Source: Clavelina lepadiformis | Taxonomy: Eukaryota; Chordata; Ascidiacea; Aplousobranchia; Clavelinidae | Assembly (NCBI RefSeq): GCF_947623445.1 | Contig: NC_135243.1 | Location: forward strand, 19,538,479-19,602,478 | Direction: 5' to 3' | Length of the DNA: 64,000 bases | Part shown: in pieces, positions 33,140 through 59,400 of the stretch | Numbering within the stretch: position 1 is the first letter of the stretch | Layout of the letters: each line of letters begins with the position of its first letter | Notes under the pieces: generated by a model | Told to the model about the DNA's origin: nothing | The model's database searches: none | What the model saw: only the letters and a program-made list of their open reading frames with translations | Made by a program: the position numbers and the translations under genes

Positions 33140-33610
33140 GGCTAAGTTCAAGTGCATAGTTTCAGAAGTTAGAAAAAGCGGAAAATGGAAATAAAACCTT
33201 ACTCAAGCAAAACGCATTATTTTATCAGAGAAAGAACTTAGGAAGCACGTTTGAGCCCAAAGTGTTTCTTTTCATTTGCATCAGCCAGTTTCATACAGAC
33301 AAGAATTAACTCAAAGGTCACGTAATTAATGATGTCATATGCCGGATTAATGTCCAAAGAATGACGTGATGCTGTGAAGGTGACTTTTAAAACTTCTTTA
33401 AATCGCTCTTGCACAATTCTCATTTTCATGAAACAAGAACGCAAAGTAACCTAATTCATTATAAATCGTCACCAAATTTGGTCATTAAATAGTCTACCTA
33501 CGCTTTAAAGTTACTTAACCTAACTTTTCGTTCACATAATAAGTTTGCTAACCTAACTCAAACAAATTTGTTTGATGATAAATAAATTTTATCTTAAAGC
33601 GCAAATACAT
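33140..33610. repeat. Dispersed repeat, copy 2 (pairs with 21340-21870)
   Basis: Same block order as the copy at 21340-21870. Best-conserved block is ACCAAATTTGGTCAT near 33471. Confidence 0.5.
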
Positions 33611-35393
33611 CACCAGGACCGTATTAGGTAATAGACGCTATAGAATTTGTTTAGCCTTTTGTTTTATTGTCTTAGGATTTCAATTATTTTTCTGTCACAG
33701 GTTTATTATACTGGGATAAAGCTTTTCCCTCTACACTCCTCCCGTATTAGTTTATTGTCAATGCAAGCCTATCATACACTTCTCAATAAAAGTTGTCAAT
33801 TGTTAAGATTTGTTTTGCATATGGTAATATGGTGGCAATATAGCAATATGACCCTATATAATTTAGGGCAGCCTATAGGTTAAGCCTTAAGGTAAGAAGG
33901 CATGGAAAAGTAAGCAAACTGATGCTAGAAGGCAGTCCCAGAAAAGAAATTTATAGGAATAAGCTAAACAAAATGCGTAATTTTTTCTGAAATAAAACTC
34001 TGCTCTATCAATGTAGGCCTATGGTACGCAGCCTATGCACGAATTGACAGTAAGAGTCAACTCTATTACATTTGATAGGCAACAAAACCGAGGTCAAGAA
34101 AATTCTCGATGAGTTTTGATTAAACAAATCAATTTTTCCTGAACATCGTTTTGTCTTGCTTCTCAAACCCTTTTATTTCTTGTAAAACATCATCTATTGT
34201 TTAAGGACCTATCTGATTTAAACACATATTGAATATTCGTGAAATATGATGCTAAATGGCTGGATATGCTTTCGCCTTGTTTTAGTGTTGTTTATATGAC
34301 GTAATCGTCAGAGGTTTTTCGCTACTTACAAAGTCATATAAAGTGAACTTAACTGCACAATCGCATTTCTTCCTTATTTGGAAAGGTACGACGTGTGATG
34401 CCAACTTTTAAACGTAAAATATTGCGTCGTGAAATTATACTAACATAAGGGAGAAAACCAGTATTACTGTAATGTGGTTGTAGCACATTTTGATAGTTAT
34501 GTCAACATCACAATGTTGGTAAAAAACAACAGTTCAAAACGGCGCTGTACTATACTAGGGACAAAAGCAAATAGGCTATGCAATCGCCGAAACGTTATAA
34601 ATAGAATTAGGCAGAGGTGATCTTTCAGTAGGGAAAGTCGCGAAATACTGATGACAACCATAGCAAAGTGTAATTACGCTTATTTCGTATGGCCAGTGCG
34701 GATGATGAAATTTGTTGAAATTATGACCGATTACAAGGCTGCAAGGTTAGGTTGGGTTATTGGGATAAAAAAATGATTTGGACTATTTAAGGTTTTATTA
34801 AACATAGCCGAAGTTAATCCACACAACCTGCTTTTAAGAATAGGGTGGTGTAGGCTATGCCGGTAAGGTAATTTTGATTTCTTAGACGTTTAGGGTTTAG
34901 TTTAAGTTAGCTTTTTGAATAGTCAGTATAGACATATAGGCTACCGGTAGCCCTAGGATATACGTCTAACGTACATTTAGAATATTGCTTGCCCGTTTAA
35001 CAGAATTTATTCTGATTTAGATTTACAGTGATAACCTAGTGCTGCCATTGGTGCGTTAATTCTACTATATTTCAAGCTTGCGTAACTTAGCCTATGATAC
35101 GTACAAACTACTGACAAGTTGTACTGTTTTTATTATACAGTATAGCCTAGCTAAAAGCTATTATACAAATGTGCTAACTTTTCCAGATGTGTTAGGCCAA
35201 TGTGGCCTTATGGAGGTAGAAATGCTTTTATATCGCATATTCTGCTGTATACATGAACAATACCGATTGCACCATATCATAAAAATGTTAACTAAGCCTA
35301 GATGTAAAACAAGTGTTTTTTGTTAGTTATTCAGAAAAATACCTTAAACTTTTTTCATTGAAAAAGCTGTTGCTTGTGTAAGAGAACGATATC

Positions 35394-38300
35394 ATGCTGA
35401 CACCTCTTGATGTACTGTCAGTTGAAACGTGGATCCTGGTGATATCTGCTATTGTCTTGTTAAGGTAGCTCAAATGTATACACTGTACAATGTATACACA
35501 AAGTAAACACCCCTATGCACTGAGTTGAAACATTAACGGGTTTGAGTAGTTCTATTGACATACAGCCTACTTTTATAGGCATTGTTCATTATTGGAGACT
35601 CTTTTACTTTTGCACTCCGACATGAAAACCTTAATGAGAAGGTGTTATGAAGTAACAGAAAATAAATTATAACGTAATAATTCCTCAACATTCGATACTG
35701 ACATAGGAGTGCAAAAGCAAAGGAGACTCGTTGATTAATTATTAATCTATACGCAAGAAATATTTCTAAATTTAGGTTCTACATTCACAAGAAGTGGCAG
35801 TTCTTCAAAAGTCGTAACGTTCCATATGATCCACCTTCATTACTGGGTTTGGGAAATTTAGTTTCATTTTTGAAGGACCCAGATGCTGTAAGTATTATAT
35901 TACTATAATTACAAGCAATTTCAAAGTTTGATTTATATAGATCCTAGTGGTCGTTTAAAACAGCTGTAATACTAATAATTTTACTAAAACTTACTTGTAA
36001 ACTATTGATAGTGCAAAAAGGTATGTGATACTCAAACATTGTTTTAACTTCCTGCACTTAACAGATTTTTACCCACGATTTGGAATGCAAGAAAAAGTAT
36101 GGACCAATATTCGGGTATTAATGATTTTCTTGATTCTGCTTTAATTTAAATACTACATACCATGAGGAACATGGGTTTACCATTTCTTTTAAATTATTGT
36201 TGTCGATTATAAATAGTTTAATACTCCTTATAACATTTATTTGATGTATATGCCAATAACACTCGCATTTTTTTAGGCTATACTTTTGGCTATCTCCTGT
36301 ACTTATCATTGGCGACCCTGAAATTTTAAAGCAAATATTCATCAAAGAGTTTTCCACATTTCCAGACAGACAGGTACAGAACAGGACGCTTTGTAATGGG
36401 TTTTTGTTGACCACTCAATCCATCGATATGTATATATATATAATCAGTATATTATTTGTACATAACTAGATTACTGTAACCTGAAAACTCATTATTAATG
36501 AATCTGATAGCTAAACCATTTACTCATTAAATACTTTTAAATCAGTAACAAAGCTTGTTGGGATATGATGCTAGATAAACCAGGAATTTTCCCATATAGG
36601 TAGGCTAAGTTTATCCCAGTACAAGTTTAAGTGGATGACCAGACTGGGACAGGCAAGCAAATTTTAAGTAGTGGTGGCTCCTAGCTCACGTATTGTATGG
36701 GCTTAGGTGTAGCTAGCTCCCTATTTTTATAAACTGTGTTACCAATATCGATACACGCCCAATTGCCCATTTCATGAGCTAACCGTGTAACATACATTAC
36801 AGTATCCTGAACTCACTCATGTAAAGGTTATTTCATACCATAACACAACTCATTCTTATGCATTAATCGTTAACTGATGAAGTGACTCAACTCATCCATA
36901 TTTATACTGTATACTTATACATAAATACATTACTGTAACCTGAGAATTTTCCTTATTAATAATTCTGATAAAGAACATTTGCAGACCTTTATGTTTTTGC
37001 AACAGGATAAATTACTCTGTTGACAAATACTATGTTTATATGTAAACAATGGACATGTTTTGACAGAAACAATTTCTCAAAGTCAATGGAAAGGAAATGA
37101 ATACTTCCTTGCTTAGTACGACTGGTGATCAGTGGAAAAGAATAAGGTGGCTAGTTTTTATTTGATTTTGTTGTGCTTGTGATTTGTAAAGTACTCATGC
37201 TAATGTTTGAAAATTGTGCTGTTAAAATGCAAATTGGTTTAGTTTATCTGCTGTGCTTCCTTAATTTTTTCAATATTGTCAACATTAGCAGTCAATTTAA
37301 CTTGAAACTACCTTGATAGGAGCACGCTAACCCCAACTTTCTCCAGTGCTAAACTCAAGTCAATGATGGGAATCATTGAACAATGTTCTGATAAGACCGT
37401 GGAAAGTCTGAAAATGATTTCTGATACCAAAGGCGGACGATTTGATGCAAAAGAGTATGGAAAAGAAAACTTTGTCTAAACTCTAGCCCATTTGCATCGT
37501 TAGATATTGTCACTTCTATTTGTAGTTTTCCGGTTTAAAGTTATGTTTTGTCTTTGCCTTTGACAGAACATTTGGTCGTTTGTCACTTGATGTCATCTGC
37601 TCTGCTGCTTTCAGTGCTAACGTCCACTCTCAGGTGATGAGATTGCTGTAATTTTTTTGTTTAAGAAATGGCAATTTTGTTTATTTTTTATTACAAAGTG
37701 CTAAGCATGTTGATTTTACTTGAAAGCAGAAATATATTACTATTTAGGTGCCTTTTTGTGTTCAACTGCCTGTGTTAATAAAATAATTGTAATTGCCTTG
37801 TGCTTCTTGCTAGATATCAGACAATATGCATACATAGCAGCAAATAATAATGCCAATATATGTTGTAAGTCTACGTCTAGTGTGTTCACTGGCAGTATAT
37901 TGATAACAGACTTTTGCTTTCAGGAAGGGAACGAAACACCCAAAATTATCCAGATGGCAAAGAAAGCATTTGGTATCTCTTTTTCCAGCCCAGTCATGCT
38001 GCTAATTTGTGAGTGTGCAACCACACTTAATATTTTGGTGTATATGCTGTTGTATGTATTGCTGTTTTACTTTATAACCGCACTTTATTGTTTATTAACA
38101 CTTTCTTTTGTTTTTTAGTTATGTTTCCATGGCTTGAAACAGTTTTGAGTAAATTTGACTGGAGCGTATTTCCCAGAGACATGTTAACTTACTTTAGAGG
38201 TCTGACTGAGGCATTGATTGAAAATCGAAAGTCTAATGACTTAAAACAGGTGAAATAAATCATTTTTTAAATTACGCCGATTTTCCTCAACTTGTTACTT

Positions 38301-39944
38301 AAAGTGAGGGCTGAGGCGCAAGTCCAAAAACGAGTGACTTAAAACTACACTGATTTCAGGCCGACTAGTTTTTGGACTTGACCCTCATTTTATGGACAAA
38401 AAAGTACTTTAAAAGACACAAGAAATAACACTGATAAGAAAAACATATAAGAAAGTATATTAGTAAACAATCAACTTATCACAGAAAAAAAATTTTGTGT
38501 TCCAGAGAGTAGATTTAATGCAGCTGATGTTAAACGTTAAAGTATCTGAGGAGGATGTTAAGAATGGAGCAACTAAAGGTAACATTTCTTCATGATTCTG
38601 AAGTAAATATTCTGGTTTGCAATATTTTCTTTGCTCTGAAGAATTCTTGTTTGTTCCAGGAATGACTTTGAATGAAATCATTGGAAATTCAATGATCATG
38701 ATATTGGCTGGATATGAAACTACTGGAAATGCTATGTTGTTTTTGGCATACAATCTCGCCACACATAAAGATGTCCAAGAAAAACTTCAACAGGAAATAG
38801 AAGAAACAATAAAAGAATATGTTAGTACTTAAGTTGAATGTTTGAAACTATGCTGCACCTATATAATATATTTAGTTTGTAATATTACTTTTGTAACTTA
38901 AACATTATATGTTTCAAGGGTGGACTTACATACGATGGGATTAACAACATGAAATATCTTACCATGTGCATCAATGAATCTTTAAGGCTTTACTCTCCTG
39001 TCGCAAGGTAAGTAGCATCACCTCCTTGCACTGATGATTTGTTTATTTGTGTACACAACACGAATATTGTTTTACAAACGTTTGATACATAAGTTATCAC
39101 AACACTATCAGTTTAAACAAACTTTTGATTGAACAAGAGTTGTGTTCTCAAATAATGTTTGTCATTGGTTATTATTAATAGCAGTTGCTTTGACAACCCT
39201 TGTAATGACAGGAACGCCAGAATTGCTGAAAAGGATTTCACAATCAACGGTCTGAATATACCTAAAGGAACTTTGATTCATGTACCAGTCTATGGAATGT
39301 GTCACGATGATGAATACTGGGATGAACCATTTGAGTTTAAACCTGAAAGGTTGGTTGATTGTCACGACTAATACATTTGCATATGCTTAATGTAGATGCA
39401 TTTACCATATTTTAATAGAATGGAGGACATGAACAAAATTGATCCAATGCTCTATATGCCATTTGGAGCTGGACCTCGCAACTGCATTGGAATGAGATTT
39501 GCATTGATGGAAATAAAAATGGGATTTTGCAAATTACTTCAAAAGTTCGATTTAGATGTTTGTGAAGACACACCGGTAAGTTATCTAAATGTTTTAGGGC
39601 CATACCAATTATAGAAGTTGTAAGCAAGTATGGAAAAATTGTTTAATACCCGAAGTGTGTTTTGAAAATAAAATTTAGTTTTTGAACTAAAATTATTTAT
39701 CAGTGGTATAAAAATCAAGTCGATAAATGTTTGTTGCTTATAATTAATTTTTAAATGCTTCTTTTGCATTGCGAGTGGTTACAGGATCACTTGCTTTTCA
39801 TTGGTGTGACTTTTTGATGATTTTCATGTTTTATTGTAAATGTTCAATATTTTTCAGTCTGCACCTTTGAAAATGCTTTTTCGAAACAGTATACAGGCAA
39901 AAGATGACATTTTCTTGAAAGTTGTTCCAAGATGCAGTAGATGA
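35394..39944 (+). CDS. Cytochrome P450, CYP3-type, tandem copy 2
   Basis: Fifteen exons: 35394-35464, 35776-35887, 36065-36114, 36277-36373, 37067-37146, 37320-37454, 37567-37633, 37924-38008, 38119-38249, 38506-38578, 38660-38820, 38919-39007, 39212-39349, 39419-39575, 39858-39944. Phases agree; 510 residues, two fewer than copy 1 because exon 9 is two codons shorter. Starts [18 protein letters not shown], a signal anchor. I-helix AGYETT, ESLR, and [15 protein letters not shown] with axial Cys452 are all intact. Far closer to copy 3 than to copy 1, in introns as well as exons. Probably an ER mono-oxygenase like its neighbours. Confidence 0.92.
35596..35733. repeat. Short inverted-repeat element in intron 1 of copy 2 (also 43889-44027 in copy 3)
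   Basis: GAGACTCTTTTACTTTTGCACTCC at the left is matched in inverse by GGAGTGCAAAAGCAAAGGAGACTC at the right, imperfectly. Intron 1 of copy 1 has nothing similar. Likely a MITE inserted before copies 2 and 3 separated. Confidence 0.5.
38301..38390. repeat. Hairpin element in intron 9 of copy 2 (also about 46546-46629 in copy 3)
   Basis: CAAGTCCAAAAACGAGT and its inverse ACTAGTTTTTGGACTTG flank a short loop, with GTGAGGG/CCCTCAT outside. Present in copies 2 and 3, absent from copy 1. Confidence 0.6.
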
Positions 39945-41668
39945 AAGATTTTCACTAAATTAGCAATGAATAATATTAGCACTTTTTAACTTGTTATTTT
40001 GTATCTGATCGTTGTTTTTTTGTACTTTATTGTGTAATTCCGTAAATTCTACTTTGATTGCAATTATCTGTTCAAGTTTATATTGTGTACACTGTAGATC
40101 CAACTAGATAAATATTGCTGTCATACATTTTGTAAAGCAGTGTAGTATAATCCCGTAGCAACGTTTATAATTTTTTATTCGCTTAATTTTGAATATAATC
40201 GATGGTAAATGGACATGATTTAATTCTCACACAATATCAGCATTGTTGGTTGAAAAGTTAAAAATTAATGACGTTTTTTAATAAAGGTCAATATCGTTAC
40301 GCTTTCTGTTTCATGGGTAGAAATTATGATGGTTTAATACACCATTCATATGATGAAATATTCATTGAAATGTTTGACCGTTTTCATCAAGTGTATGTCA
40401 GATTGCAGCTTTCTGTTCTACTCAGCAGTTTATGTCTCACTGTTTCAGCATTTTTTCTGACGTTGCAATTCTAATCATTGGTACTTCCACTCATAGCGCA
40501 CTATTAAAAATTGACTTTTATAACGCCGTGTTGTTATTTGTTTGATTTCAGTTGATCAGCTCAGCAATATTTTATGAACGGGCTATTTAAAGCTTGAGAT
40601 ATCTTGGAAAAAGTTTGAAATGTTTAACGAACGGCTGCCACTGTTTCGCCTGAAAAAAACTTTCGTTTCAAACTTTTTTCACGATTTCTTGTTAACCTTG
40701 TGACGATGACGTCACGATTCATGAGTTGTTACTTTTCTCTCTCACTTGTAAAGACAGCGCGGTGACGTCAGATAAAGTAACTCGCTTGAGCTGGTGTCGA
40801 TATATACTTTTGTGTTGTTCGTAATCTACCCCTTTATTATGCTATTGATTTCATTGGTTACTACTACGCAATGTAACATGCAGTAAGCTGTGCCCGAAGG
40901 TGAAAGCCTTCGTGTCTGATAATAAATAAAATGGGAACTTTATAACTTAGTAATTTATATAACTTAGACATAATTAAGCAACTAACAGCATAGTGACGCC
41001 GTTTGAGAAATGAGAACTCATATCATCGAAGCAGAAGTTAAACAAATTATTATCAATCGTCCTCGCTCACATTCTAACAATTACCGCCAGCATACGCGGT
41101 CATTATGACTGATATATTTGTTGCGTAGTACTTTACACAAGTAATACACAAACGAACAAAAGTAATTTGTCATAACGACTCATAACCTAACGTAAATGTT
41201 ATGACAAACCAACCTAAAGTTGTCTTCTTATTTCACTTCAATTAAACGTTAAGTACAGTAGATGAAATCAAATTTTTCCAAAACCTCTCGAATTTAATTA
41301 TTTGCAAAACAATTATGGGGTAAAACTTCGTCAGAGGTGCCCTTTAAGATATTTTTCTAGGGGCAAGCTTGCTTCTTTTATTATTGAGAAAAATAGGGAC
41401 TTCGAATGTTAGTTGAAATAGCTAGGCCTATTGTTATTTAGCAAGACTGCTTGACACTCTATAGTCCAACAAATATGAAATAAGTTACAAGGAATGTGAC
41501 TCATCGAACACGCTTCCAAATACCATGCACATTTTGCACAAGGAGGCCATCGGATGTTTTTATTATTCTGACGAATACAAGTCTGATGTCATTGGAAGGG
41601 CGGTAAATGGTACTTACGTGAGAATTTTCCAGTCTCACTTCAAACCGCTTTGATTTTGTACTATAATT
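39945..41668. other. Spacer after P450 copy 2 with NLR-locus blocks
   Basis: No gene. About 40110-40345 matches 48370-48590 after copy 3, 41270-41610 matches 48900-49225, and 41575-41655 matches 51505-51585. The order is the same as at the NLR locus. Confidence 0.6.
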
Positions 41669-42098
41669 TAGGGATGGGCCGATACGAACCCAAACCCGAA
41701 TAGATTCGCCGAATATCGTCTTTGTAGAAGATTCGGGACAACAGGAATGCCTACAATGCCGAACCTGAATACAATTTTACTTATAAATTTGATGACTTTG
41801 TTAAAAAATGATGATCTAGTTTCCTGACGAAGCTAAAGTAAAGTCAGCTATAGCCTACTTACAATGAAGGTCGTTTTCCTAACGATTTTGCTTTTTCAAT
41901 GGATTTTTAAACACTGTTTTTTTTTAAAGAAAGCAACTTGTTTATCGATTACGTCATGTTACAAGCAAGACTTGACAACTTTCGGATGAAATTTTATTGT
42001 TTGGTTCTAATACGAATATATTCGGGATTCGTTCGTGTCGACCTTCATAATATTCGGGTTCGTACGAACCCGATATACTTCCTCGTCGCACATCCCTA
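41669..42098. mobile_element. hAT MITE, 430 bp
   Basis: Ends TAGGGATG and CATCCCTA are inverted. Flanking 8-mers CTATAATT (41661-41668) and CTATAAAT (42099-42106) are a target-site duplication with one change. Subterminal CGATACGAACCC and GGGTTCGTACG are also inverted. No coding capacity. The uninserted sequence is at about 52368. Confidence 0.8.
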
Positions 42099-42344
42099 CT
42101 ATAAATACACGAACTTGACGTAAAGACTGGATAAAAAATAATCTCAGCAAACAACAAAAACTAAGAAAATCCGTACACCTGTTTCATGCAAATAACTGAT
42201 GCTGATATACATTAAAGTTCGTTAATTCTCGAAATTAAAGTTGGCCATATGCCAGAAAATGACATTTCGGAAACAGTTGTTAAAATTGGAATGGACATAA
42301 CATGTAACCGGCAACATTTGATTTTTGTCGTAACGTCAATGTAG

Positions 42345-42632
42345 CTGATCAGGAGGACGCGTGGGATGTGGAACCTCTTGATCATTCACAGGAAGGAACA
42401 TCATCTTGTAAAATCGCATTTAGCATGGAACAACTTAAAATGTCATCAACTTACTACACAAAGACTATGCTTACAACAATAACAACAACTTATTACTTGC
42501 TATGACAACTCACAACGTAAAATGAACTTTGCACCACATTTTTTAAAGAGTGCAATAACAAAGAAATCGAGTTGTTGCTTATCAATAAGTGTAAAAACAA
42601 TTTTGTTTCTATATTTAGGAGAAATTCTGCAA
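42345..42632 (+). pseudogene. NLR gene relic: exon 6 part, intron 6, start of exon 7
   Basis: Matches 57270-57545 almost throughout: the exon part GATGTGGAACCTCTTGATCA..., the splice donor (G-GTAAGA there, T-GTAAAA here), the whole intron, the acceptor ATTTAG, and the first 15 or so bases of exon 7. It then breaks into the 5' flank of P450 copy 3. Exon 6 lacks its own upstream half and everything encoding NACHT. Confidence 0.85.
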
Positions 42633-43723
42633 ATTTGTTTATATGACGTAATCGACAGAGTTTTTTTCCTACTTCGTAAACCATGTAAAGTAAATCTAAC
42701 TAACCACCCAAGACCAATCGCATTTCTCCCTATTTGGGAAAATACGACTTGTGACAAGGACGTTTAAACGTAAAATATTGCGTCGTGAAATTTTGTTAAC
42801 ATAAAGCATAAGAGCAGTCTTATTGTAATGTGACTGTAGCACATTTTGATAGTGATGTTAACATCACAAAGTTGGTAAACAACAGTTCAAAATGGCGTTT
42901 TACTGGAAGTGGGAAATAGGCCTACACAAATAGACTATGCAATCACCAAAACGTTATAAATAGAGTTAGACAGAGGTCTTCTTTCAGGTATTGAAAACGT
43001 AACACAATGCCTCGCTAAGCAGACTTGAGAAGACAGGGAATCCTTCGGGATGCTATTTATAGCACACCTGAAAACAAAATACAGGAAGCATGATACATTA
43101 TATTCAATCAGTATGATATAATATAATCCCATCATCACAAACACAACCCGCTTTTAAGGATAAGGTGGTGTTTCCTGGTATGGTAAATTTGATTTCTTAG
43201 ACGTTTAGAGTTTAATTTAAAATAGCTTTCGGATTAGTGAGTATAGGCTTATTGGAGAGCCTTTTAAGCTAAAGGTTCAGACAAAGGTATGTAAGTAGAT
43301 TTTCGTTATTAGGGCTAGCCCGTTTCACAGAATTTATTTTGCTTTAGATTTACAATTTTAGTCTAGTGGTGCCACTTTTGCGTTAATTCTACCATATTTC
43401 GAGCTTTCATAACTTAGCCTATGATACGTACAAACTACTGACAAGTTGTACTGTTTTTATTATACAGTATACCTAAAAGCTATTATACACTTGTGCTAAC
43501 TTTTCTATACATGCTAGGCTAATGTAACCTTATGGAGGTAGAACTGCTTTTATATCGCAGAATCTGCTGTATACATAAACAATACCGGTTGCACCATATC
43601 ATAAAAATGTATAACTATAATATAGGCCTCGTTGTTCAACAAGGGTTTCTTGTTGGTTTTTCAGAATAAGACCTTAAACTTTTTTCATTGAAAAAGCTGT
43701 TGCGTGTGTAAGAGAACGATATC

Positions 43724-46700
43724 ATGCTGACACCTCTTGATGTACTGTCAGTTGAAACGTGGATCCTGATGATATCTGCTATTGTCTTGTTCAGGTAGCT
43801 CAAATCTATTATCATTAATGTGAATCATTAATGGGTTTGAGTAGTTCTATTGACATACAGCCTACTTTTATAGGCATTGTTCATTATTGGAGACTCTTTT
43901 ACTTTTGCACTCCGACATGAAAACCTTAATGAGAAGATGTTATGAAGTAATAGAAGTAAAATGTAACGTAATAATTCCTCAACATTCGATACTGACATGG
44001 AAGTGCAAAAGCAAAGAAGACTCGTTGATTATTTTCTATTCGCAAGAAATATTTCTAAATTTAGATTCTACATTCACAAGAAGTGGCAGTTCTTCAAAAG
44101 TCGTAGTATTCCATATGAACCACCTACATTACTTGGTTTGGGAAGTTTAGTTTCATTTATAAAGAACCCAGATGGTGTAAGTATTTTATTAATATAAGTG
44201 CAAGCAATTTCAAAGTTTGATTTATATGGATCCTTGTGGTCGTTTAAAACACTTATAATACTAATAATTTTAATAAAACATACTTGTAAACTATTGATAC
44301 TGCAAAAGGTATGTGTTAGACGTAAACATTGTTTTAATTTCCTGCACTTAAAGATTTTTACTCGAGATTTGGAATTCAAGAAAAAGTATGGACCAATATT
44401 CGGGTATTAATGATTTCCTTGATTCTGCTTTAATTGAAATATATACTACATACCATGAGCAACATGGGTTTACCATTTCTTTTAATTTATTATTGTCCAT
44501 TGTAAATAGTTTAATACTTTTTATGACATTTATTTGATGTATACGCCAAAAACACTCGAAACGTTTTCAGGATATACTCTTGGCTATCTCCTGTGCTTAT
44601 CATTGGCGACTCTGAAGTTTTAAAGCAAATCTTCATCAAAGAGTTTTCCACATTTCCTGACAGACAGGTACAAAACAGGACACTTCGTAATGGATTTGAT
44701 TGACCACTCAACACATCGATATGTATATATATAAACAGTATATTGTTTATATATAATTAGATTGCTGTTTACTGAAAACTCATTATTAATAAATCTGAAA
44801 GCTGAACCATTAACTCATTAAATACTTTTAAATCAGTAACAATGTTAGGATATGATGCCAGATAAACCAGGAATTTCCCATATAGGTAGGCTAAGTTTGT
44901 CCCAGTACAAGTTGTTTAAGTGGATGACCAGACTGAGACAGGCAAGCAAATATTAAGTAGTGGTGCCTCCTAGCTCACGTACTGTATGGGCTTAGCTGTA
45001 GCTGGCTCAGTGTAACACACATTACAGTATTCTGAACTCACTTGTGTAAAGTTTATTTCATTCCATAACACAACTCATTCTTATGCATTAATCTTTAACT
45101 AATGAAGTGACTCAACTCATCGATATCTATACTATATAGTATATACTTATACATAAATACGTTACTGTAACCTGAGAATTGTCCTTATTAATAATTCTGT
45201 TAAAGAACATTTGCAGACCTTTATGTTTTCACAACGTGATAAATTACTCTGTTGACAACCGGTATATTTATATGTAAACAATGGGCATGTATTGACAGAA
45301 CCAGTTTCTCAAAGTCAATGGAAAGGAAATGAATACTTCCCTGCTTAGTACGACTGGTGATCAGTGGAAAAGAATAAGGTGGCTAGTTTTTATTTGATTT
45401 TGTTGTTCTTGTGATTTGTAAAGTACTCATGGTAATGTTTGAAAATTGTGCTGTTAAAATGCAAATTGGTTTAGTTTATCTGCTGTGCTACATGAGTTTT
45501 AATATTATCAACATTAGCCCTCAATTGAACTTGAAACTACCTTGATAGGAGCACACTGACCCCAACTTTCTCCAGTTCTAAACTCAAGGCAATGATGGGA
45601 ATCATTGAACAATGTTCTGATAAGACCGTGGAAAGTCTGAAAATGATTTCTGATACCAAAGGCGGACGTTTTGATGCAAAAGAGTATGAAAAGGAAAACT
45701 TTGTCTAAACTCTAAACTTTAGCCCATTTGCATCGTTAGATATTGTCACTTTTATTTGTAGTTTTCTGGTTAAAAGTTATGTTTTGTGTCATTTATTATT
45801 ATCTTTGCCATTGACAGAACGTTTGGTCGTTTGTCACTTGATGTCATCTGCTCTGCTGCTTTCAGTGCTAACGTCCACTCTCAGGTGATGAGATTGCTGT
45901 AATTTTTTTGTTTAAGAAATGGCAATTTTGTTGATTTTTATTACAAAGTGCTAAGCATGTTGATTTTAGTTGAAAGCAGAAATATATTATTATTTAGGTG
46001 CCTTTTTGTCTGTAACTGACTGTGTTTATAATCTTAATTGCCTTGTGCTTCTTGCTAGATATCAGACAATATGCATACATTGCAGCAAATAATAATGCCA
46101 TTGCATGTTGTAAGTCTACTTCTAGTGTGTTCACTGGCAGTTTATTGATAACAGACTTTTGCTTTCAGGAAGGGAACGAAACACCCAAAATTATCCAGAT
46201 GGCAAAGAAAGCATTTAGTATCTCTTTTGCCAGCCCAGTCATGCTGCTACTTTGTGAGTGTGCAACCACACTTAATATTTTGGTGTAAATGCTGTTATAT
46301 GTATTACTATACTACTTTATAACCGCACTTCATTGTTTATTAACACTTTCTTTTGTTTTTTAGTTATGTTTCCATGGCTTGAAACAGTTTTGAGTAAATT
46401 TGACTGGAGTGTATTTCCCAGAGACATGTTAACTTACTTTAGTGGTCTGACTGAGTCATTGATTGAAAAACGAAAGTCTAGTGAGTTAAAACAGGTGAAA
46501 TAAATCATTTTTTAAATTGTTCAGCTTTTCCTCAACTTGTTACTTAAAGTGAGGGGCAAGTCCAAAAACGAGTGACTTAAAACTACACTGATTTCAGGCC
46601 GACTAGTTTTTGGACTTGACCCTTATTTTATGGACAAAAAAGTACTTTAAAGACACAAGAAGCAGTACTGATAAGAAAATATATTAGTAAACAATCAACT

Positions 46701-48204
46701 TATGACAGAAATATTTTTATGTTCCAGAGAATAGATTTAATGCAGCTGATGTTAAACGTTAACGTATCTGAGGAGGATGTTAAGAATGGAGCAACTAAAG
46801 GTAACATTTCTTCATGATTCTGAAGTAAATATTCTGGTTTGCAATATTTTCTTTGCTCTGAAGAATTCTTGTTTGTTCCAGGAATGACTTTGAATGAAAT
46901 CATTGGAAATTCAATGATCATGATACTGGCTGGATATGAAACTACTGGAAATGCTATGTTGTTTTTGGCATACAATCTCGCCACACATAAAGATGTCCAA
47001 GAAAAAGTTCAACAGGAAATAGAAGAAACAATAAAAGAATATGTTAGTATTTTAGTTAAATGTTTAGAAATATGCTGCACATATATAATATATTTAGTTT
47101 GTAATATTACTTTTTTAACTTAAACATTGTATGTTTCAAGGGTGCACTTACATACGATGGGATTAACAATATGAAATATCTTACCATGTGCATCAATGAA
47201 TCTTTAAGGCTTTACACTCCTGTCGCAAGGTGAGTAGCATCACTTCCTTGCGCTGATGATTTGTTTATTTGTGTACACAACACGAATATTATTGTACAAA
47301 CGTTTGATACCAAAGTAATCACAACACTATCAGTTTAAACAAACTTTTGATTGAACAAGACTTACAAAGCTTTGTGTTCTCAAATGACGTTTGTCATTGG
47401 TTATTATTAATAGCAGTTGCATTGACAACGCTTATACTGACAGGAACGCCAGAATTGCTGATAAGGATATCACAATCAACGGTTTGAATATACCTAAAGG
47501 AACTTTGATTCATGTACCAGTCTATGGAATGTGTCACGATGTTGAATACTGGGATGAACCATTTGAGTTTAAACCTGAAAGGTTGATTGGTTGTTACCGC
47601 TACTACTTGCAAAATTGTTGTCACGACTAATACATTTGCATATGCTTAATATGGATGCATTCACCATATTTTAATAGAATGGAGGACATGAACAAAATTG
47701 ATCCAATGCTCTATATGCCATTTGGAGCTGGACCTCGCAACTGCATTGGAATGAGATTTGCATTGATGGAAATAAAAATGGGATTTTGCAAATTACTTCA
47801 AAAGTTCGATTTAGATGTATGTGAAGACACACCGGTAAGTTATCTAAATATTCTAGGACCATAACAATTATAGAAGTTGTAAGCAAGTATGGAAAAATTG
47901 TTTAAAACCCAAGGTGTGTTTTGAAAATTAAAGTTGGATTTTGAACTAAAATTATCATTGGTATAAAACTCATGACGATAAATGTTCGTTGTTTGTAATT
48001 AATTTTTAAATGCTTCTTTTGCATTGCGAGTGGTTAAACTAAAGGATCACCTGCTTTTCATTGGTGTGACTTTTTGATGATTTTCATGTTTTATCAAAAT
48101 TGTTCAATATTTTTCAGTCTGCACCCTTGAAAATGCTCTTTCGAAACAGTATACAGGCAAAAGATGACATATTCTTGAAAGTTGTTCCAAGATGCAATAA
48201 ATGA
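43724..48204 (+). CDS. Cytochrome P450, CYP3-type, tandem copy 3
   Basis: Fifteen exons: 43724-43794, 44065-44176, 44354-44403, 44571-44667, 45299-45378, 45549-45683, 45818-45884, 46169-46253, 46364-46494, 46728-46800, 46882-47042, 47141-47229, 47444-47581, 47678-47834, 48118-48204. Phases agree; 510 residues. Starts [19 protein letters not shown]-helix AGYETT, ESLR and [15 protein letters not shown] with axial Cys452 are intact. Differences from copy 2 cluster in exons 2-4 (e.g. [15 protein letters not shown] for [15 protein letters not shown]) and in the region after the K helix. Exon 3 uses acceptor TAAAG rather than AACAG. Likely an ER-bound mono-oxygenase with a related but perhaps shifted substrate range. 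Confidence 0.92.
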
Positions 48205-50400
48205 AAGATTTTCACCAAATTAGTACTTTTTAACTTGATTGTTTTGTATCTGATCGTTGTTTATTTGTGTTCCTTATTGTGTAATTCCGTAAATTCTACT
48301 CTGATTGCAATTATCTGTACAAGTGTATGTTGTGTACACTGTAAATCCAACTAAATAAATATTGTTGTCATGCATTTTTTAAAGTAATTCAGTATAATCC
48401 GTAGCAACGTTTATAATTTTTTATTCGCTTGATTTTAAATGCAATCGATGGTAAATGGACATGATTTAATTCTCACACAATATCAGCATTGTTGGTTGAA
48501 AAGTTAAAAATTGCTGACGTTTTTTAATAAAGGTCAATATCATTACGCTTTCTGGTTTATGGGTAGAAATTATGATGGTTTAATACTGGGTTGTCCAAAC
48601 TTTTTTCACTGAGGGCCATCTGCTAAAATGTGAACCAGTGTTCGGGCCACTCACTATGTGTGAAGATCGTTGCTTGCCTGCAACGCACTAACACCGTGTT
48701 ATCAATAAAAACAGTAAAAATAAGTCGCAGTTGCAAGTATGGATATTTATTTTAATATAAAAATAGTTGAATACGAGTGTAAACTGGTGCTGGTTTGACT
48801 CTTGCCACTTTTTGGTGATAGTTACTGAAATAGCACTTTACTTACAATGTTTCAAATACAAGCAAACTAAGCTTTTAAAAGTAAAGTTAGTGGTATAGAA
48901 TACTCCAAAAAATCTCGAATTTAATTACTTGCCAAGACATTATCGAGTGAAAATTTCATTAGTTCAAATTTCATCATTATTTCAGTGCCCATTGATTTCT
49001 GGGGGCATCTGAGGACAGCTTGCTTTTGTTAATGAGATAATTAGGGACTTCGAAAGTTGGTTTAAATATTTATTGTTATTTAGTAAGATTGCTTGACACT
49101 TGATAGTCCAAGTCCAACAAATGTAAGATACAGTACTAGAGATGTGACTAACCTTATACGCTTCCAAATAACATGCACATTTTGCACAAGGAGGCCATCG
49201 GTTGCTTGCGCTATTCTGACGAAAACAAATTTTAACAGCAGATTTTGTTGAACTCTTTAATTTGCATGAAATACAAAAATAACAGCAGAACATTGACTTT
49301 TCTTTTGCATTAGCGGTTGTAAAGGTGAGGTAGCCTATTAGTTACGAAAACTTTTGCAACTCTGGTACAAACTAAGATGAGGTTGATTTGTTCTCATTCG
49401 TCATCGGAGTGGCAGCTTTCGGCAAGACTGCCTGATTGGCTTGTCAGGTAGCCAGCTGTAGTTTGATTAGACACGTTGAGCAACGGACTCTCACGAATTT
49501 GAAAACGTATCACTGGTATTTCTATGAAATCCAATCCTTTTCAATGTGGCAAATCCCTACTGCATTCGACTGCAAAGTTTTCGTCATCGGTTTTGAAGGT
49601 GGAATTGTTCTATCAAGTTGATTTTTGTGTCGGTGTTTTGTTGGCCACACTTTACCGAATCAACGAAATCTCTTATTCTTTTTTTCTCAGTACCACTTTA
49701 TTGTCGTAAACTGTAGAGAATATACAGTATACTGCAGAGCACTACTGTACGTTATGTTGTCGCACGGCTGAAGCTACTATACCATTAGATTTACATGAAG
49801 TTTATCATCGAATATACAGTATACCGCAATAGAAACCAAATTAATTGATCTAGCGATAAACTGCAGCTATGGTTAAGGAAATCCTTTAGTTTCAACTGCA
49901 AGTACAGTATGTGAAGTAGGTTCGTGTAACAGTGATTTTGCTATATGATATTGCTACTGTCGCTTCTACAGACCTAACAAGTCAGTCAGAGTCAGCCTAT
50001 TACAAGATCGAGGAGCTGAAACCGGTTTACCATTAGCTTGAGCTATGCTTGAATGAACTGCAGCGTATGAAAAAAGACGACAGACTATGACGTAATAACT
50101 ATTTTAAAACCTAGCGGCACGAAGGAGCGCATATGATTTCAGGCTAAGTAGCTACAGATTGGCAAGGAGTTGCTCACTAGCAGCATATACTTTCCTGAAG
50201 TAATTTATAATTATCTCAATTCAGTCGTTCCGATAACCGTTTATTGTTATTTTAGCAGTTAAGTCACCTTTAATGCGACGTGATAGATAAACTGAAGTGG
50301 ATAACCGAACTAAAACTAGTTTGGTTTGGATAACACGTCGGATTCAAAATTAAGTTTGATACACGGCATTGTAAAGTCTATTTTTCCAGGCTTGACATTG
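48205..50400. other. Spacer between P450 copy 3 and NLR gene
   Basis: No gene. Holds a hAT end fragment and blocks matching 41270-41610. The NLR promoter should lie near 50200-50400. Confidence 0.45.
48586..48720. mobile_element. hAT-type terminal fragment
   Basis: CTGGGTTGTCCAAACTTTTTTC followed by GAGGGCCATCTGC is a typical hAT left end. It starts exactly where similarity between the two duplication units (40345 and 48587) breaks off, so it probably inserted after the duplication. No matching right end located. Confidence 0.5.
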
Positions 50401-50410
50401 CGTCTGTAGT

Positions 50411-53400
50411 ATGAATGATGCTGAATTTGACACTGCTGATGGTTTATCTGCTGTAAGTAATTCGAACCAAACTCTGGACGCAGCTCGAACAAGTTTGCCT
50501 GCCAACGAAAATAATGGTAATGGACCGAGCGAAGTTAGCAACTTGGTTGAGAGGACCATGCAGCAAGATCAACAACGTATGCTGACGCCCATGCCAACAG
50601 ACCATGAAGGTAGGCTATGGAGAAAAGCATACGGTTGTGCAATTTGTTTGTTATTTAATTCTGTTATGTGTGATGACTGATGAGTCAAGTGGAAGCTTTT
50701 ACTTTTAAGATTTGCTATGGGCTGAAGTGTGGTTTTGTAATTAAATGCTGATTGTTTAGTTTCAAGCATTACATACAACCAAAATATTTCTAAACATATG
50801 TTAAGGCAGTCGTATCGTTTCTGTCCCAAAACATTTTTCTGCCACATTTGTAACGTCTGTTACAATCTCAGAAATGTGTTACTTCTGCTATTCCTGGTTC
50901 GAATTAAAAGTCGCTGAAATATTCTTTATCGTTATTCCCCAAGCCATTATCGTTTTCAGTGTTTTTGTGCGTGTTATGTCAGATAGGCATTACACAAAAC
51001 TAAATGGCTGCAATAGCAGATGCTGGGAAATCTCAAGGGTGCAATGTAATATGATACAGAAAGTAAATATAATACTGGGATGGCTAAATCGAACACATAC
51101 ATAACGTGTTACACAAATCCATTTCCAAACACAGTACATTTTTCATGTCATAAAACCACATCGCTATTCACAGATGTATAACAACCGAGAATATTCAACG
51201 GTGTATTCAACATTCAAAGCGAAATAGATACGTCATAATATGCTTCGACGAGTTGGAAAAAGTGTTTTGTATAGAGTATTGTGCTGATTTTGTTTTTGAT
51301 GATGCGATAATATTGCACAACACGCTTTAGTATGGAGAACTTTGACCAGCTATTGTAACTATAGAATTATACAATCCCGGAAACACGGTCGTTTGTCTTT
51401 GCTTGGTAGGAGATTATTTTTCATTTTGTTAACTGTCGTGATTTGACCCTAGGTGACACAGCCAGCATACTTTTCATTCAATATGAACATAATAGGCGAA
51501 TATAGAATTCTGATGTCATTCTTAAAGGGCGGAAGATGGAACTTACGTGGAAATTTTCCATTCCCACTTCAAAACGCTTTGGGTATTATATTCTTGATAA
51601 CAAAAATTCCGTCGCAAAGCATGGGCTGTACTGAGCGAAAACATGTGATGCGCTTGCGCATTAAAATTGTTTGAATCAGCGCATGCGTGACAGCCCTGTC
51701 TTTCGCAATATTTCGCTCACGCAAGTAATAAACATGTTTTTCCTTCCGTGTGGGCCTAGGTCTTACGACACTTTTCAATAGCATAGCCTGATAGGCTAAA
51801 ACGTGTTTACAGTAATCAAATTCCCCTGCTAGCTTGTCGATTTGGTTAATTTTGATGCCAGGATTTAAATTCTTTTTTTTAAAACGAAGATATTCTGGTG
51901 GAGGCTACACAACATTCAGATATGAAAGATGCGTGCCCTAGAACCTAAAATTCACGAATACTCCACATTCAAACAACTAAAACGCCTATGTCTAGCTCTT
52001 TTGAGACTCTAACATTAACCGATAATACTTTATCAAATTCGTCATTATTTTAATATAATGTAAATGTAACTTCCACAGCAATCCATGATACGAAGCAATC
52101 AGTTAAGCATAAGTTGGGCTAGAGCACTTTTGCAAAAAATTAATATAAATAAAGTCTACAATTGTGACGCATAAATTATATATTAGCTTTCAATAAATCG
52201 CTTTTGTGTTATTTAAACAATTTTTGTTGGAAACAAAGCGAAAAAGATGTCATGGTAGCCATTCAAAAAAACAAAATTGATTTAAGTGAGGCATTGTTTA
52301 GCTTAGCATACAAGTCGAAATAACGCCCATGGCTATACTTAGCGCATTGTTTAAGTAAGGAGAATTTGTACTATAAATACAGGTATGTGACGTAAAGACT
52401 GGACAAAAAATAAGCTCAGCAAACAATCAAAACCAGTACACCTGTTTCATGCAAATAACTGATGTTGATATACATTAAAGTGCGTTAATTCCCGAAATTA
52501 ACGTTGGCCATATGCCAGGAAATGAAATTGGAATGGACATAATATGTTACCGGCAATATTTGATTTTTGACGTAACGTCATCCGGTTTGTAACAACATAT
52601 CACTATATAGACCAGCGGTGCCAAACTCAATCGCACCAGGGGCCAAATCTCAAAACTTATAACGCCGCGGGCCATAAGGATGATAACTAGGGCCATTTTT
52701 ATTTTGACCTAAAAAAAATTTTTTTTGACTTTATTTTTATCAAATTTTGACTTTATTTTGACCTAACGAAATTGCTTATTTGTAGAGGCCACAGTTCTTC
52801 CTCCAGTTACCCAAACATAATATTTTGTCGATTTCAGACCCAAACGTAATATTTTGTCGAAAAGTCAAGGTGTTTTATGGATTATAAAAAGTGCGTCGTG
52901 TTTTTTGGCGTTAGATTTAGGTAGCTTGTGTTATTTTGTCCTTGTGAAAAGGGCACTTTGCCTCGATTTTCTCCGAATGGTAAATTCTAATAAACAGCAA
53001 ATTAAACAGGGAAGAAGTAATGTAATCCCCTTCACGCGGCATAAGGATTAATTTATTTAAATACGTAACAATGAATAAACAATGGACAATTTGCGATAAA
53101 AGTTACTGCTGATCCAAGTGGGCATTGTGACTTATTTCCTGCTTTTATGGGTTAATATGGTTTAATTGTGTCGCAGTTCCTGATTTACAATGCTTACACG
53201 AGGATTTTTACAAAAATTACTCTCAAGAAACACAAAAACTTTGTCAAAAGTCATAATTTGACAAATTTTGACTTTATTGAAAATTTTGACTTTATTGTAA
53301 ATTTTGACTTTATTTTGACCTATAAACTTCTTAGAAACAATCCCCTAGGTGCTGAAAACAATTTTATTCTTTGATTCGTGGTCAGACGAGGTCCTTAAAA

Positions 53401-56400
53401 ATTTTTGACTTTTGCGGGCCCTAATGATAACTGATTGAACGTTTCGTAACTTGACGTGACTTGATTGACTGTATCCCGACACGAGTACATGAATTGGAAC
53501 AGGCAGCGAAACAACACCAAGTTTTTGATGTTTAAAGCTCGGTGTATCATTCTTCTTCGAATACAAGTCCAACAAATATTGACGAAAAAAAGTAAAAATA
53601 CATCGCACTCGATAATATACCCTGCCAAGAAGTAGAATAAAAGCTTACCTACCACGAAGTAGGCTTATTATTAAAAACAAGACTTTGGGAAAACCAGTGT
53701 ATTTCACGGAAATTGGGCCGTGCGATCAGTGGGAACAACATGAATCAAAAACTATTTTGTTAAGTTTGTGCTGCATTGTTTGATGTTTAAAGAAGCCGCT
53801 CTCAAATACGAGCACGAAGTAGACCGATAAAATGAATATGTAAAAAATGAATGTATGCGGTTTACGGTATGCTATAACTATAAGCTCATACGCAGAAATG
53901 CAGTAATAAGATTCTGTCAAACACGACCGTACTACAGGTAGCCTGCATCAAAAAATGGAAATGAAACCATGCACAAGTTAAAATTAGAAATTGCATTAGA
54001 TAGTTTGGCCATATTGAAAGGTGCCGTACTATTAGACTTGCAAAAATTAAACTGAGGCTGCTGAATAAGAGCAGTTTTAACTGGGCTGTTTTTAATTATT
54101 CTTATGTTACGAGTTACGACATTATGTTTCATTTATTGTGTCATTATTTTTCATTTGCAAAAGCATTAAAGAATTACCAAACAATAAAGAAAAGGCAGCC
54201 CAGAATACAAGCGATAGAATAAATCGATTTATTCTATCGTATGTTGAGGCAACTGCTGTGCTACTGTATTGTGCGATTTGTTGTTTACTGATCCGGGTGT
54301 TTGACACGTATGATATAGACAGAGCTTTTGACGACGATTATTGTGTAGCCTAAAATCGCATCCTGTGTTACTGAAAGTAAAATAACTTGAGAACAACATG
54401 ATGAATGTTAAAATAAAAATGAAACCAAAAGCGATTTCAAGCATAGCTTTAGCAAAGATACGTCAAGTTATTTTTTTCTGATGGAATCGCTCAAGTTATT
54501 CGAAACTTATTGCGGTGATGACATTATTGTGTTATTGACGGAAGCTAACCCCCAGTTTAAACCAGTTGCTGTATGTGTGATGAAATTAATCCATATACCG
54601 TACTTGATTTGCAGATAACTCGCTTTCGTCGTCCGCACTTCGGCTTCCCAATGGAAACACCCAGATTGCACAAAACTTCATGAACAACGAAAACAATCTG
54701 ACTGTCGCAAATGCGGACCAGTTTGAATTCAGAGAAATTGTACGGGTAGCAAGTCAGACTGGTGGTGAGTTGTGAATGATTTCGTCCATCATACAGGCCT
54801 GAGTGTTTTTTTATCAAAGCACAACGCTAAATATTGTGACATAAAATACGCTCTAACACAAGCATTTCTATAAAACTATAGTTAATTATGCCTTTAAATG
54901 TGTATCACATTGATATCAGGTCTTATTTGTACGTTATTTCCTGATAGTAATAAATTAATATGTCTATTATGCAGGCGCGCTGAGTATAACTTACGCGCCT
55001 CATTATGAGCAGCGCCACGATAACAGACAGTTCGTTGATCAGCGACAATTTCACAGAACTGATGTTGAGAATTGCTCCGATTTGAATTTGGGTTCGGGTA
55101 GCAGAGTGTCGAACGTTTATAATCCTGGTAAGCTGCATTTGTTTTCTCAATGGTTGTAGGTATTTTGTCGTTTTGGAAAACGTTTTGTTCGTTTTACTTT
55201 CGTGCTTTATGATTTTGCATTTTGTGTAGGCGGCCCAAGCGATACTGCTATGAGCAGTGAAAGGCGATCGTCACAGGAAGAAATCAAGAAAAAAAGTGAG
55301 TTACCGTCGTTTGTTATGGATATAACTTACAGTATTCATTACTTGAAAATCGTTTAACTTTAGTTTATATAGTAATCGTTAGTAGCTAATTTCATTTTTG
55401 TTACTCACGAATTGGTAAATGTGAGGCTGTATATGTGTCCAGGTTGTAGCCTATACCATTAAAGAGTAGTGTTGGGAGTTTCTACCTCTTTAATCTCTGG
55501 AGAATCTTTAATAAACTTTAAAAATTTTTAACTAATTTTAACTACATTTGTACATTTAATAAATTTAAAAAATTTGAACTAAAATATTGTACAGCGTTAA
55601 TTAAATTTAGTAGGTGTAACAAATACCACGAATTGATCCAATTCATCATTACTTTTTGCGTTGCGCAGATGAGGAACTTGCCATCAATAAAGTCCTGGAG
55701 TTGCAGGAAAAGTATCGTGAGGATGACATTCAACTTCAAGGAATTGATGTTGCTGGGAGCGATATTCCTGAAGTTCATCCCACCTATGTGAAGATATCTT
55801 TTTATCAGGGAGAAGCTGCTCCAAGGACAGAGGAGTATTTGCCTTCAACCTCCACCCTTACAATCCGGGAAGAGCTCCAAGTTGATTTCGAAGACTTGCT
55901 GCAGAGCGAAAATCAACCTCATTTTATTTGTTTAATTGGCATCCCAGGATCTGGAAAAACTACCTGTGCCAGAAGACTTGCTAAGTCGGAAGAATTTACT
56001 TGTTTTTACATGAAGTTCATGGATATGAATTACGAAACTGATCTTACTCTTAAGGATCTGTTCATATGTAAAGCCTACCCAGATTTGGAAAAGAAGGTTT
56101 GCGATGAAGCTTTTCAATGGATCGTCCACAACCAAAAGCAGTGTGCATTTATATTTGATGGAATTGATCAAGCAGAGTGGACTTTAAAGGAAAAAGTGCC
56201 AAGACAAGATTACGACACCCCGTTGCCAGTGGCTGATCTTGTGTCCAATCTCTGCAACAAACGTTTTCTGCCTGACGCTCACCTGGTTTTCACATCTCGG
56301 CCTCATAGCGTCATCTTCCTTCCGAAATCTTGTAGACCAGACGCAACTTACTTGCTGGGCGACTTACCTTACGATTGCACGAAGGAGCTCTTCTATTCAT

Positions 56401-59400
56401 ATGCTGGTGATCAGGCAGGTTCCATGTGGGAAGCACTTGAATCTCATGCCCCTCATCTCATCAGTTTGTGCTCAAATCCACTCATGATTCAATTGGTTGT
56501 TGCTTCTTGTCTCAACCCATCAAGCAAGGTCGGTGACATCCTTTCATCTTCTGACAAAGCCTTCACACAGACGAGGGTGTTCGCTACTGTTCTTGACAAC
56601 CTGAAGCACTGTGACAACACCAGACATGAGAATATCGAAGAACTGTCTGCACAGATTGGCAGAGTTGCATTTCAGGCAACGAGAAATTCAACCGTCGTCA
56701 TCACCATCCACCAACTTCGTAACGAGGGTCTCAGTTCAGAAATGGTTCAAGACATCATAATCACTCTTCATGCTCACAAGGGTATCACAAGCAAGGTATT
56801 TGAGGGTGACACGAAATTGATCTTCTGTCACCAAACGTTCCAGGAGTACTACACTGGCTACCATATCACCCACAGCATATCGGTTAGAGAGTTTAAGGCT
56901 CTAGTGGAAGAGGAGCTTTTTACTGATCGCTGGGCAATGGTCAGAAGATTTCTATGCGGGCAGCTTGTGGATTTGACGTCTGGTGAGCTTTTTATGTATG
57001 CCTGCAACAACGTTTAGGTCTCTTTGTTTTGTGAGTATATTTTGTTAAGTCTTGCATTAGCTCAAGGCACTTGAACATTTTTAATAAAATATTCCAACTT
57101 ACAGTATCTTATAACATTTACCAGAATGACAATTACGTGCCGGTGGCACTTGAAATATTTTATTGTCAACTTTATTTTATTTATTTGCATAAATCTGATG
57201 TAGTTATGCGTTTCGTTTGTAGATCAGACCCTAGAGCAATCTGAGACCGATCTTCCTGTTGAAGAGGAGGAAACATCGGATGTGGAACCTCTTGATCATT
57301 CACAGGAAGGAACATCCTCTGGTAAGATCGCATTTAGCATGGAACAACTTAAAATGACAACAACCTACTGCACAAAGACTACTTACAACAATAAAAACAA
57401 CTTATTACTTGCAATGAAAACTTACAACGTAAACTGAACTTTGCAACACATTTTTAAGAGTGCAATAACAAAGAAATCGAGTTGTTGTTTATCAATAAGT
57501 GTAAAAACAATTTTATTTCTACGTATAGGAGAAATTTCGCAAACCAAAAAGGGGCGTTGTGTGGGAAACTTTCTCCGCAGTATTCGCCGAGCCATCGCCC
57601 ATCCATTGAAAAGAAAAGGTAATATCGTGAATTGTTTAACTGTAATTTGGAAATTTTAAATAACAAAACTGATCGCAAAATATTAAGAGCCACCTTTAGC
57701 CTGAACATTTGCGTTAAAATGATTGTGTATTGAATTGGTATACGCACTGGGTTACATGTTACAGCAGTAACGGACGGCTTTTCTAAAAAAAAATGTCTTA
57801 ATGTTTACATAAAATTGAAACTAAAAAACGAAGCCAAAAACGTTGGACATCTTTAAATGATGACTTTAAAATTTTTGCCCATATTTCATCCAAAGAAGCT
57901 TATATATATGTGACCATATATTGAAATGTGTATTTCAAACACATAAACATCCTTTCAGGAAACTCTACAAAATATGAGTGCGAACCGAAGACGTCAAAAG
58001 TTCAAAATGCAACGGATAACCAGACATCAGCGGACAGGTATACTTGTGTTATTCAAGGCACATAAATATGACAAGCCAGTAGTGCAGATGGCAAGGTTTT
58101 CTGTACATTAGGCTGTGCTAAGCGCAGCAAAATATTAATTAAAACAATCTTATTACGATGCAATGTAGATTTTGCAGCAACAAACCAATAATATCAGTAT
58201 AGTGCCGCACAACTGTTGTAGCGTTATACTATTCCCATTCTATGGTAACCTGATTTTATCGTTTGTTTTTGATTTTTGCAGCCATAAATCAAATATGGAC
58301 AAATTGCCGTCAAATGGGATCATTTCTGCCCAGAACCAGGTTAATACCATTTTCAGCTCATAAAGTTTATACGTGATTATAACCTAAACAACTTAGACAT
58401 TGGTTTCATTTCCCATGGCTGCAGCTAAAACGTTAGTCTTGCATGTTTTTAGGAAATATGCCTACAAGTTGCTGCGCGCAACGAGCTTGACAGCGACGAA
58501 GATCCAGGTGACTTGCAGTTTTTACATAGTTGTCGTTTTTTCATATAATCTTGATAAAATACAGTGCATAACTTTGATTCGGCGTTCTTTTTCACAGAAA
58601 ACACTCGTGGGGCGAAGAGGAATATCTTGGTTGACAGCATCATCGGAAAACTGGAAGAATTTTCTTCGAAATTCAGTGGCGATGCAGGTACAAAGTTTAT
58701 CGGTTTAATAACGAAAAGTCGCCAGATACGCTGGTTTCTCCTGCAGTTTGAGATATCTAAGAATACCGTATCAACGATAGGAATGTGTTATAGTCTAATT
58801 AATAGAAATGTACTTATGACGCAGTCGACATTATACGACAACAATCATATTTGTGAACACGTTGCTTTTATTCGTAAAACATTTTCGTTTCTACTTCTTT
58901 TACTTTTAACACGTCCTATTTAGACAGCAAACGTAGATTGCTTGAGCTTTGGAGTGACGTACGCGAATGCAACAACGAGTTCGTTCGAAAAAAGGCAGCA
59001 GGGTATTTCCCCGCAAATACCAACCTTTGGGGAATCCCGCTAAACACCAGCCAAATCTTGTCGTGCTGCTATGTGCTGTCATTGGTGCAGAATATTCAAT
59101 TTCTAAACTTGTCTAACTGTCATCTTGACAAGACCTCTTTTCGGCAGTTTTGCTCGGCAATCAAGCAAGTACCGTCGGTAAGTTTTTATCTTGCCGGTAT
59201 TGCTTATTATAACTTACCTCGCCGTTGCTAACCTACACTATTATTTGGGGCGTAATATCAATTTATTGGGCTCACCATTAAGCCCTGTTTACAAATGTAA
59301 AACTTACTTTTAAAATTTCTAGATTGGCATGTTAAGTATCGTTGGCAATTACTTGGAATGTGAATCGGTGAGCGACATTTGCGAAATCCTTCCAAATATC

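Follow-up and report, generated by a model that had tools for sequence, protein, structure and literature searches.

The window analysed here is a stretch of 64,000 nucleotides from the ascidian Clavelina lepadiformis, and its numbering is used throughout, also for positions that lie outside it. It contains three P450 genes, an NLR (NACHT-LRR) gene and a fructosamine kinase. A literature search found no publication on this locus, which is no proof of absence from print. The genes on which the analysis turns are the following:

25261-30855, P450-1, 15 exons, GT-AG introns, no internal stop
35394-39944, + strand, P450-2, 15 exons, 510 aa, intact, CYP3-like
43724-48204, + strand, P450-3, 15 exons, intact, CYP3-like, 92.7% identical to P450-2 in amino acids
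50411-59835, + strand, NLR gene, 14 exons, 956 aa, intact
57529-57618, + strand, exon 7 of the NLR gene, which contains the right end of the duplicated unit (57543)

As in P450-1, the introns of P450-2 and P450-3 are all GT-AG and internal stops are absent. The best named relatives of P450-2 (among the best 120 of 1194) are 3A-like and CYP3-like, which places it with the CYP3-like P450s, and a database P450 from another contig (P0010) matches PF00067 with 343 bits in Pfam. The coding sequences of P450-2 and P450-3 differ with a dS of 0.074 and a dN/dS of 0.43 (bootstrap 0.26-0.72, n=200); the pair is thus constrained, and both genes appear to be kept intact under purifying selection. P0010 is closer to P450-2 (98.0% identical) than to P450-3 (92.7%), and the P450 duplication would therefore predate the split between the two database records. 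The P450-3 counterpart of P0010 has no separate database entry, perhaps because the database was clustered at 90%. Within P450-1, the tract 28195-28594 is 96.5-98.5% identical to P450-2, with adjacent windows at 53 and 88%, and over the same positions, in exon 11, P450-1 and its counterpart from the other record (P0011) are no more than 87% identical. It seems that P450-2/3 recently converted part of P450-1 in this lineage; the three P450 coding sequences gave no signal in a run test (p 0.36, 0.91 and, for P450-2 against P450-3, 0.46), and windowed identity shows the tract despite this null result. Around these genes, 21648-21833 and 33386-33581, upstream of P450-1 and P450-2 respectively, share a 70% direct match that is perhaps a trace of the older P450 duplication. 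Pieces of hAT-type transposase (Dimer_Tnp_hAT, zf-C2H2_12) lie at 22356-24662, between zinc-finger sequence and P450-1, and 30987-31678, between P450-1 and P450-2, is a dispersed repeat with at least 39 other places in the genome (among the best 40 of 1756 candidates). Behind P450-1, the interval 30.9-34.3 kb holds no match to the NLR region in self-blastn (E 1e-5) and none above 45% identity in tblastn with the NLR protein P0001.

The NLR model has an open frame across its 14 exons, beginning with exon 1 at 50411-50609, and 13/13 of its introns are GT-AG. P0001, a Clavelina lepadiformis database protein of equal length (956 aa), is 99% identical to it across the part aligned in the protein search and 97.7% overall, the differences falling mostly in exons 1 and 2 (56/67 and 45/50 residues equal). 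The NACHT domain of P0001 is recognised by PF05729 with 67.1 bits, above the Pfam cut-off; Pfam finds no LRR at E 0.1 and no N-terminal effector domain. A profile of P0001 with two relatives, P0002 and P0003, was searched against solved structures and matched NLRP3 over the NACHT part and LRR proteins, e.g. ribonuclease inhibitor, over the C-terminal part. The structure model of P0001, built from 3 sequences, has a low overall confidence (mean pLDDT 42.5) and is poor over the NACHT part; it has alternating strands and helices at ~816-900 and a linker (625-753) below pLDDT 50, as would be expected of a loose linker followed by an LRR part. By its sequence the gene belongs to the NLRs, with NACHT and an LRR-type C-terminal part, and may be classed as a putative immune-type sensor.

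P450-2 and P450-3 lie in two abutting, collinear and direct copies of one segment, that is, in a tandem segmental duplication. Its parts, and the blocks by which the downstream half of unit 1 is recognised, are:

34288-42633, + strand, unit 1, with P450-2 and the NLR relic (self-blastn, genome search)
42634-42634, + strand, single extra base between the end of unit 1 (matching 57543) and the start of unit 2 (matching 34288)
42635-57543, + strand, unit 2, with P450-3, exons 1-6 of the NLR gene and bases 1-15 of its exon 7 (self-blastn, gene model)
41371-41580, + strand, relic block A, paired with 49018-49228, upstream of NLR exon 1
41575-41652, + strand, relic block B, paired with 51502-51581, in NLR intron 1
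42097-42338, + strand, relic block C, paired with 52369-52580, in NLR intron 1
42351-42633, + strand, relic block D, paired with 57265-57543, the end of exon 6, intron 6 and the start of exon 7

The identity of the pairs in self-blastn is 77.9% for A, 82.5% for B, 80.2% for C and 90.1% for D, and all four are in direct orientation and in the same order in both units. Ranked by score, the four pairs reach 379, 239, 174 and 79.7 bits, whereas the best of 300 dinucleotide-preserving shuffles of 40341-42634 reached 43.7 bits. There is also a fifth, short match (41277-41329/48904-48957); this piece, with which the first block of an earlier note on this DNA began, reaches 45.5 bits and is barely above chance. 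The left end of the unit is a separate block in self-blastn, 34288-34628/42635-42987, which was found at only 2 places in the genome. In searches of the species' own genome, 42097-42633 matched itself and its two partners only (3/3 candidates scored), and 41240-41665 matched itself, the 49.0-kb partner and a 71-base stretch of C1 at 79%, which covers 41280-41350 and so lies outside the four blocks (3/3 scored). The latter search did not recover the 80-base partner that block B is known to have at 51.5 kb, and the search tool skips very common words; it supports the uniqueness of this short block only weakly. The earlier note had described four block pairs behind the second and third P450 copies, and read them as a tandem duplication of a segment with P450 and NLR sequence in which the upstream NLR survives as a collinear relic; self-blastn and the gene models bear this out, with the pairs at the places given, on the same strand, in the same order and far above the shuffles. 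Nor are the blocks out of order, in mixed orientation or dispersed, the outcomes named beforehand as speaking against a duplication: blocks A, C and D and the left flank occur at two places only.

Between the blocks, unit 1 lacks three pieces of unit 2, and both units contain dispersed repeats:

49229-51501, + strand, unit-2 sequence absent from unit 1 (deletion 1, ~2.3 kb), contains NLR exon 1; no second copy found
51584-52360, + strand, unit-2 sequence absent from unit 1 (deletion 2, ~0.78 kb), within intron 1 and with approximate limits
52581-57264, + strand, unit-2 sequence absent from unit 1 (deletion 3, ~4.7 kb), exons 2-5 and the front of exon 6
52683-53431, + strand, dispersed repeat of 0.75 kb in NLR intron 1 of unit 2, at least 39 other places (among the best 40 of 740 candidates)
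41669-42098, + strand, dispersed repeat inserted in the relic, at least 37 other places (among the best 40 of 1220 candidates)
40694-41176, + strand, dispersed repeat in unit 1, behind P450-2, matched at 5 other places, twice over nearly its full length

The loss of NLR exon 1 in the first gap and of exons 2-5 in the last had been proposed from the letters alone and agrees with the gene model, by which the last gap also takes the front of exon 6. For the stretch 49229-52368 the own-genome search gave a single place (1/1 candidates), and the first two gaps are therefore read as losses from unit 1 and not as sequence gained by unit 2. That the third is also a deletion in unit 1 rests on the gene model. 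The repeat at 52683-53431 lies within this third gap, and unit 2 may have acquired it later than the duplication. The one at 41669-42098 has short inverted ends and an imperfect 8-base target repeat and, from a reading of its letters, may be hAT-like. A processed (retro-) pseudogene was considered and rejected, for the relic retains sequence of intron 1 and intron 6.

The copied unit starts ~1.1 kb upstream of the CYP3-like P450 and stops at the 15th base of NLR exon 7, where homology to unit 1 ends; the duplication thus ends within the NACHT-LRR linker of the NLR. Exons 1-6 and these 15 bases make up 1996/2871 coding bases (~70%), and exons 8-14, which encode the LRR part, are not in the copied segment visible today. 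Since the unit ends inside exon 7, the upstream NLR copy was most likely truncated at birth and, on this sequence evidence, never a complete sensor; the downstream NLR is whole because its 3' exons lie to the right of the unit. The locus has the form of a partial gene duplicate, in that homology breaks within the coding sequence of the longer copy and unit 1 has no match better than 28.3 bits to the sequence beyond 57543. The longer copy also has the ancestral structure: P0002 and P0003 join NACHT to a C-terminal part, which makes the full gene the older state, although these proteins are relatives and not a single-copy ortholog of the locus, so that the comparison is weaker than the textbook test. 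The earlier note held that the NLR had been duplicated too and only the P450 kept twice; the P450 alone is indeed intact twice, but with an end in exon 7 the NLR copy was probably never complete.

The history that we consider probable is a direct tandem duplication in which the NLR copy was born truncated and then decayed. The duplicated segment would have begun ~1.1 kb upstream of the P450 and ended at base 15 of NLR exon 7, its two ends being joined with one extra base. At neither end of the unit is there a repeat, and the letters at the junction share only a trivial match, which points to end joining or a replication-based mechanism and not to crossing-over between repeats. The product would have been two complete P450s, a complete downstream NLR and an upstream NLR without most of exon 7 and exons 8-14. 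At least three deletions would then have taken exon 1, some of intron 1, exons 2-5 and the first part of exon 6 from the truncated, unconstrained copy, and a transposon would have inserted into it. Purifying selection would have kept both P450s intact, and there are signs that sequence was exchanged within their cluster. We infer that the present junction is the original one and that the decay was neutral. Divergence between the units is 14.3% (128/896) in the left flank and upstream sequence, 10.8% (81/753) in the relic blocks (8.5 to 15.3% in single blocks) and 6.8% (195/2865) in the P450 introns. Relic and flank have diverged to the same order, as a single event requires. The non-uniformity counts against this history; the low value of the P450s may reflect gene conversion, for which the run test on P450-2 and P450-3 gave no signal.

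It is unlikely, but deserves the most weight among the alternatives, that the whole NLR gene was duplicated with the P450 and that the 3' exons of the NLR copy and the left end of unit 2 were lost afterwards in one deletion spanning the junction. Abutting unit ends fit an original junction and a later deletion junction alike, and with at least three deletions already in the same relic one more is not far-fetched. Such a deletion costs an extra event, however, running from exon 7 to a point upstream of P450-3. Exons 8-14 and the sequence right of the unit (57544-64000) have no match in unit 1 at E 1e-5, none better than 28.3 bits (E 0.16) when searched to E 10, and no tblastn match of P0001 above 45% identity. 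On the other side, 30865-34287 has no match in unit 2 better than 30.1 bits (searched to E 10). Both absences would also be expected from the deletion itself.

Two further accounts have hardly any probability left. In the first, unit 1 would be the older, short form and the NLR exons would have been inserted into unit 2 later; formally, what is missing from one locus can be read as added to the other, and a 4-base match (CGAA) flanks the first gap. Against this insertion, 49229-52368 was found once in the genome, the missing pieces carry exons 1-5 of one gene, in frame with the exons outside them, and a full-length paralogue of the gene is present in the same genome. The second, an assembly artefact or unpurged second haplotype, is suggested by the very repetitive tract that the region adjoins, and we think it just as improbable. 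The assembly, which we take to be kaClaLepa1.1 (210.1 Mb, scaffold N50 25.1 Mb; PMC10884593, in part), was built from 117-fold HiFi data with a consensus quality (QV) of 67.4, the units differ by 7-14% on average by region, and the greater closeness of P0010 to P450-2 means that the copies split before the records did. That the blocks are dispersed repeats lined up by chance may be set aside for A, C and D and the left flank, since, even with three dispersed repeats lying between or beside the blocks and a genome search that missed the short partner of block B, these four are found at two places only, in order and orientation.

The wider surroundings bear on whether P450 and NLR belong together. 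An inverted NLR paralogue (NLR-B, the 867-aa P0002) lies ~150 kb away, at about -101.8 to -111.5 kb, and further out comes sequence matching the fructosamine kinase of the window. The arrangement is the mirror image of the window's own NLR and kinase, and these two look like old neighbours. No P450 was found beside NLR-B: tblastn finds only the three window copies in 238 kb (E 1e-3; E 1e-2 with >45% identity). The P450s are thus one-sided and have either come in here or been lost on the other arm, and P450 and NLR are not a conserved pair, although the word 'pair' in the earlier note suggests a lasting association. The NACHT exons of the window (55667-56984) are 89% identical in DNA to those of NLR-B (L009 3293-9191), three other matched parts having 49-74% protein identity, and gene conversion between the inverted copies at these exons is possible. 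Much of the neighbourhood is repetitive. From about -95 kb to 21.3 kb (L010, L011, L013-L021 and the window) run more than 100 kb of nested direct and inverted repeats with ~72-98% identity, a tract that near 20 kb contains CCCH zinc-finger sequence; a tandem array with a period of ~419 bases extends over at least 24 kb (-144477 to -120324; L024, L023, L022), and more direct repeats, with pieces 70-82% identical, lie to the right of the window at 68515-84905 (L012, L025, L026). Genome-wide, the NACHT family gives at least 97 matches (among the best 97 of 137 candidates), several with identical scores, many of them clustered at 0.3-3.7 Mb on C4 and others on C5.

Both ends of the event can be read at this locus, and they show how an immune-type and a detoxification family can be linked in a change of copy number by position alone, along an ordinary route of genome growth and gene loss. 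They also caution against seeing selective loss in a vanished duplicate that was probably incomplete from the start. Most interesting would be expression, at any time, of the LRR-less NLR copy. An NLR can signal in the absence of its LRRs, as has been shown for NLRP3 (PMC6281599, in part). One may imagine, as a long shot, that the truncated copy was transcribed and harmful, and that its NLR start and NACHT exons were quickly removed under selection to keep the second P450.

The individual genes have known relatives in Ciona. Named CYP3-like P450s of Ciona are ~54-58% identical to the P450 here and belong to the same sequence family, from which the present genes are distinct only in species, in the tandem arrangement seen and in the NLR fragment carried along. 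Ciona LOC100175027 (P0003) likewise combines NACHT with a C-terminal part (44% identical across 58% of the region searched), with a shorter N-terminal part; the NACHT-LRR linker is much longer in the NLR of the window, neither P0002 nor P0003 having a counterpart to ~692-760 of P0001 and matching 640-691 more than in part. As an event, the locus is a new example of a known process, the partial tandem gene duplicate. It shares with the partial duplicates described by Katju 2012 (PMC3449122, in part) that one copy lacks the coding sequence past a break within the reading frame and that the longer copy is like its relatives; it differs from them in that the partial copy came with a complete neighbour gene and then lost most of the copied sequence.
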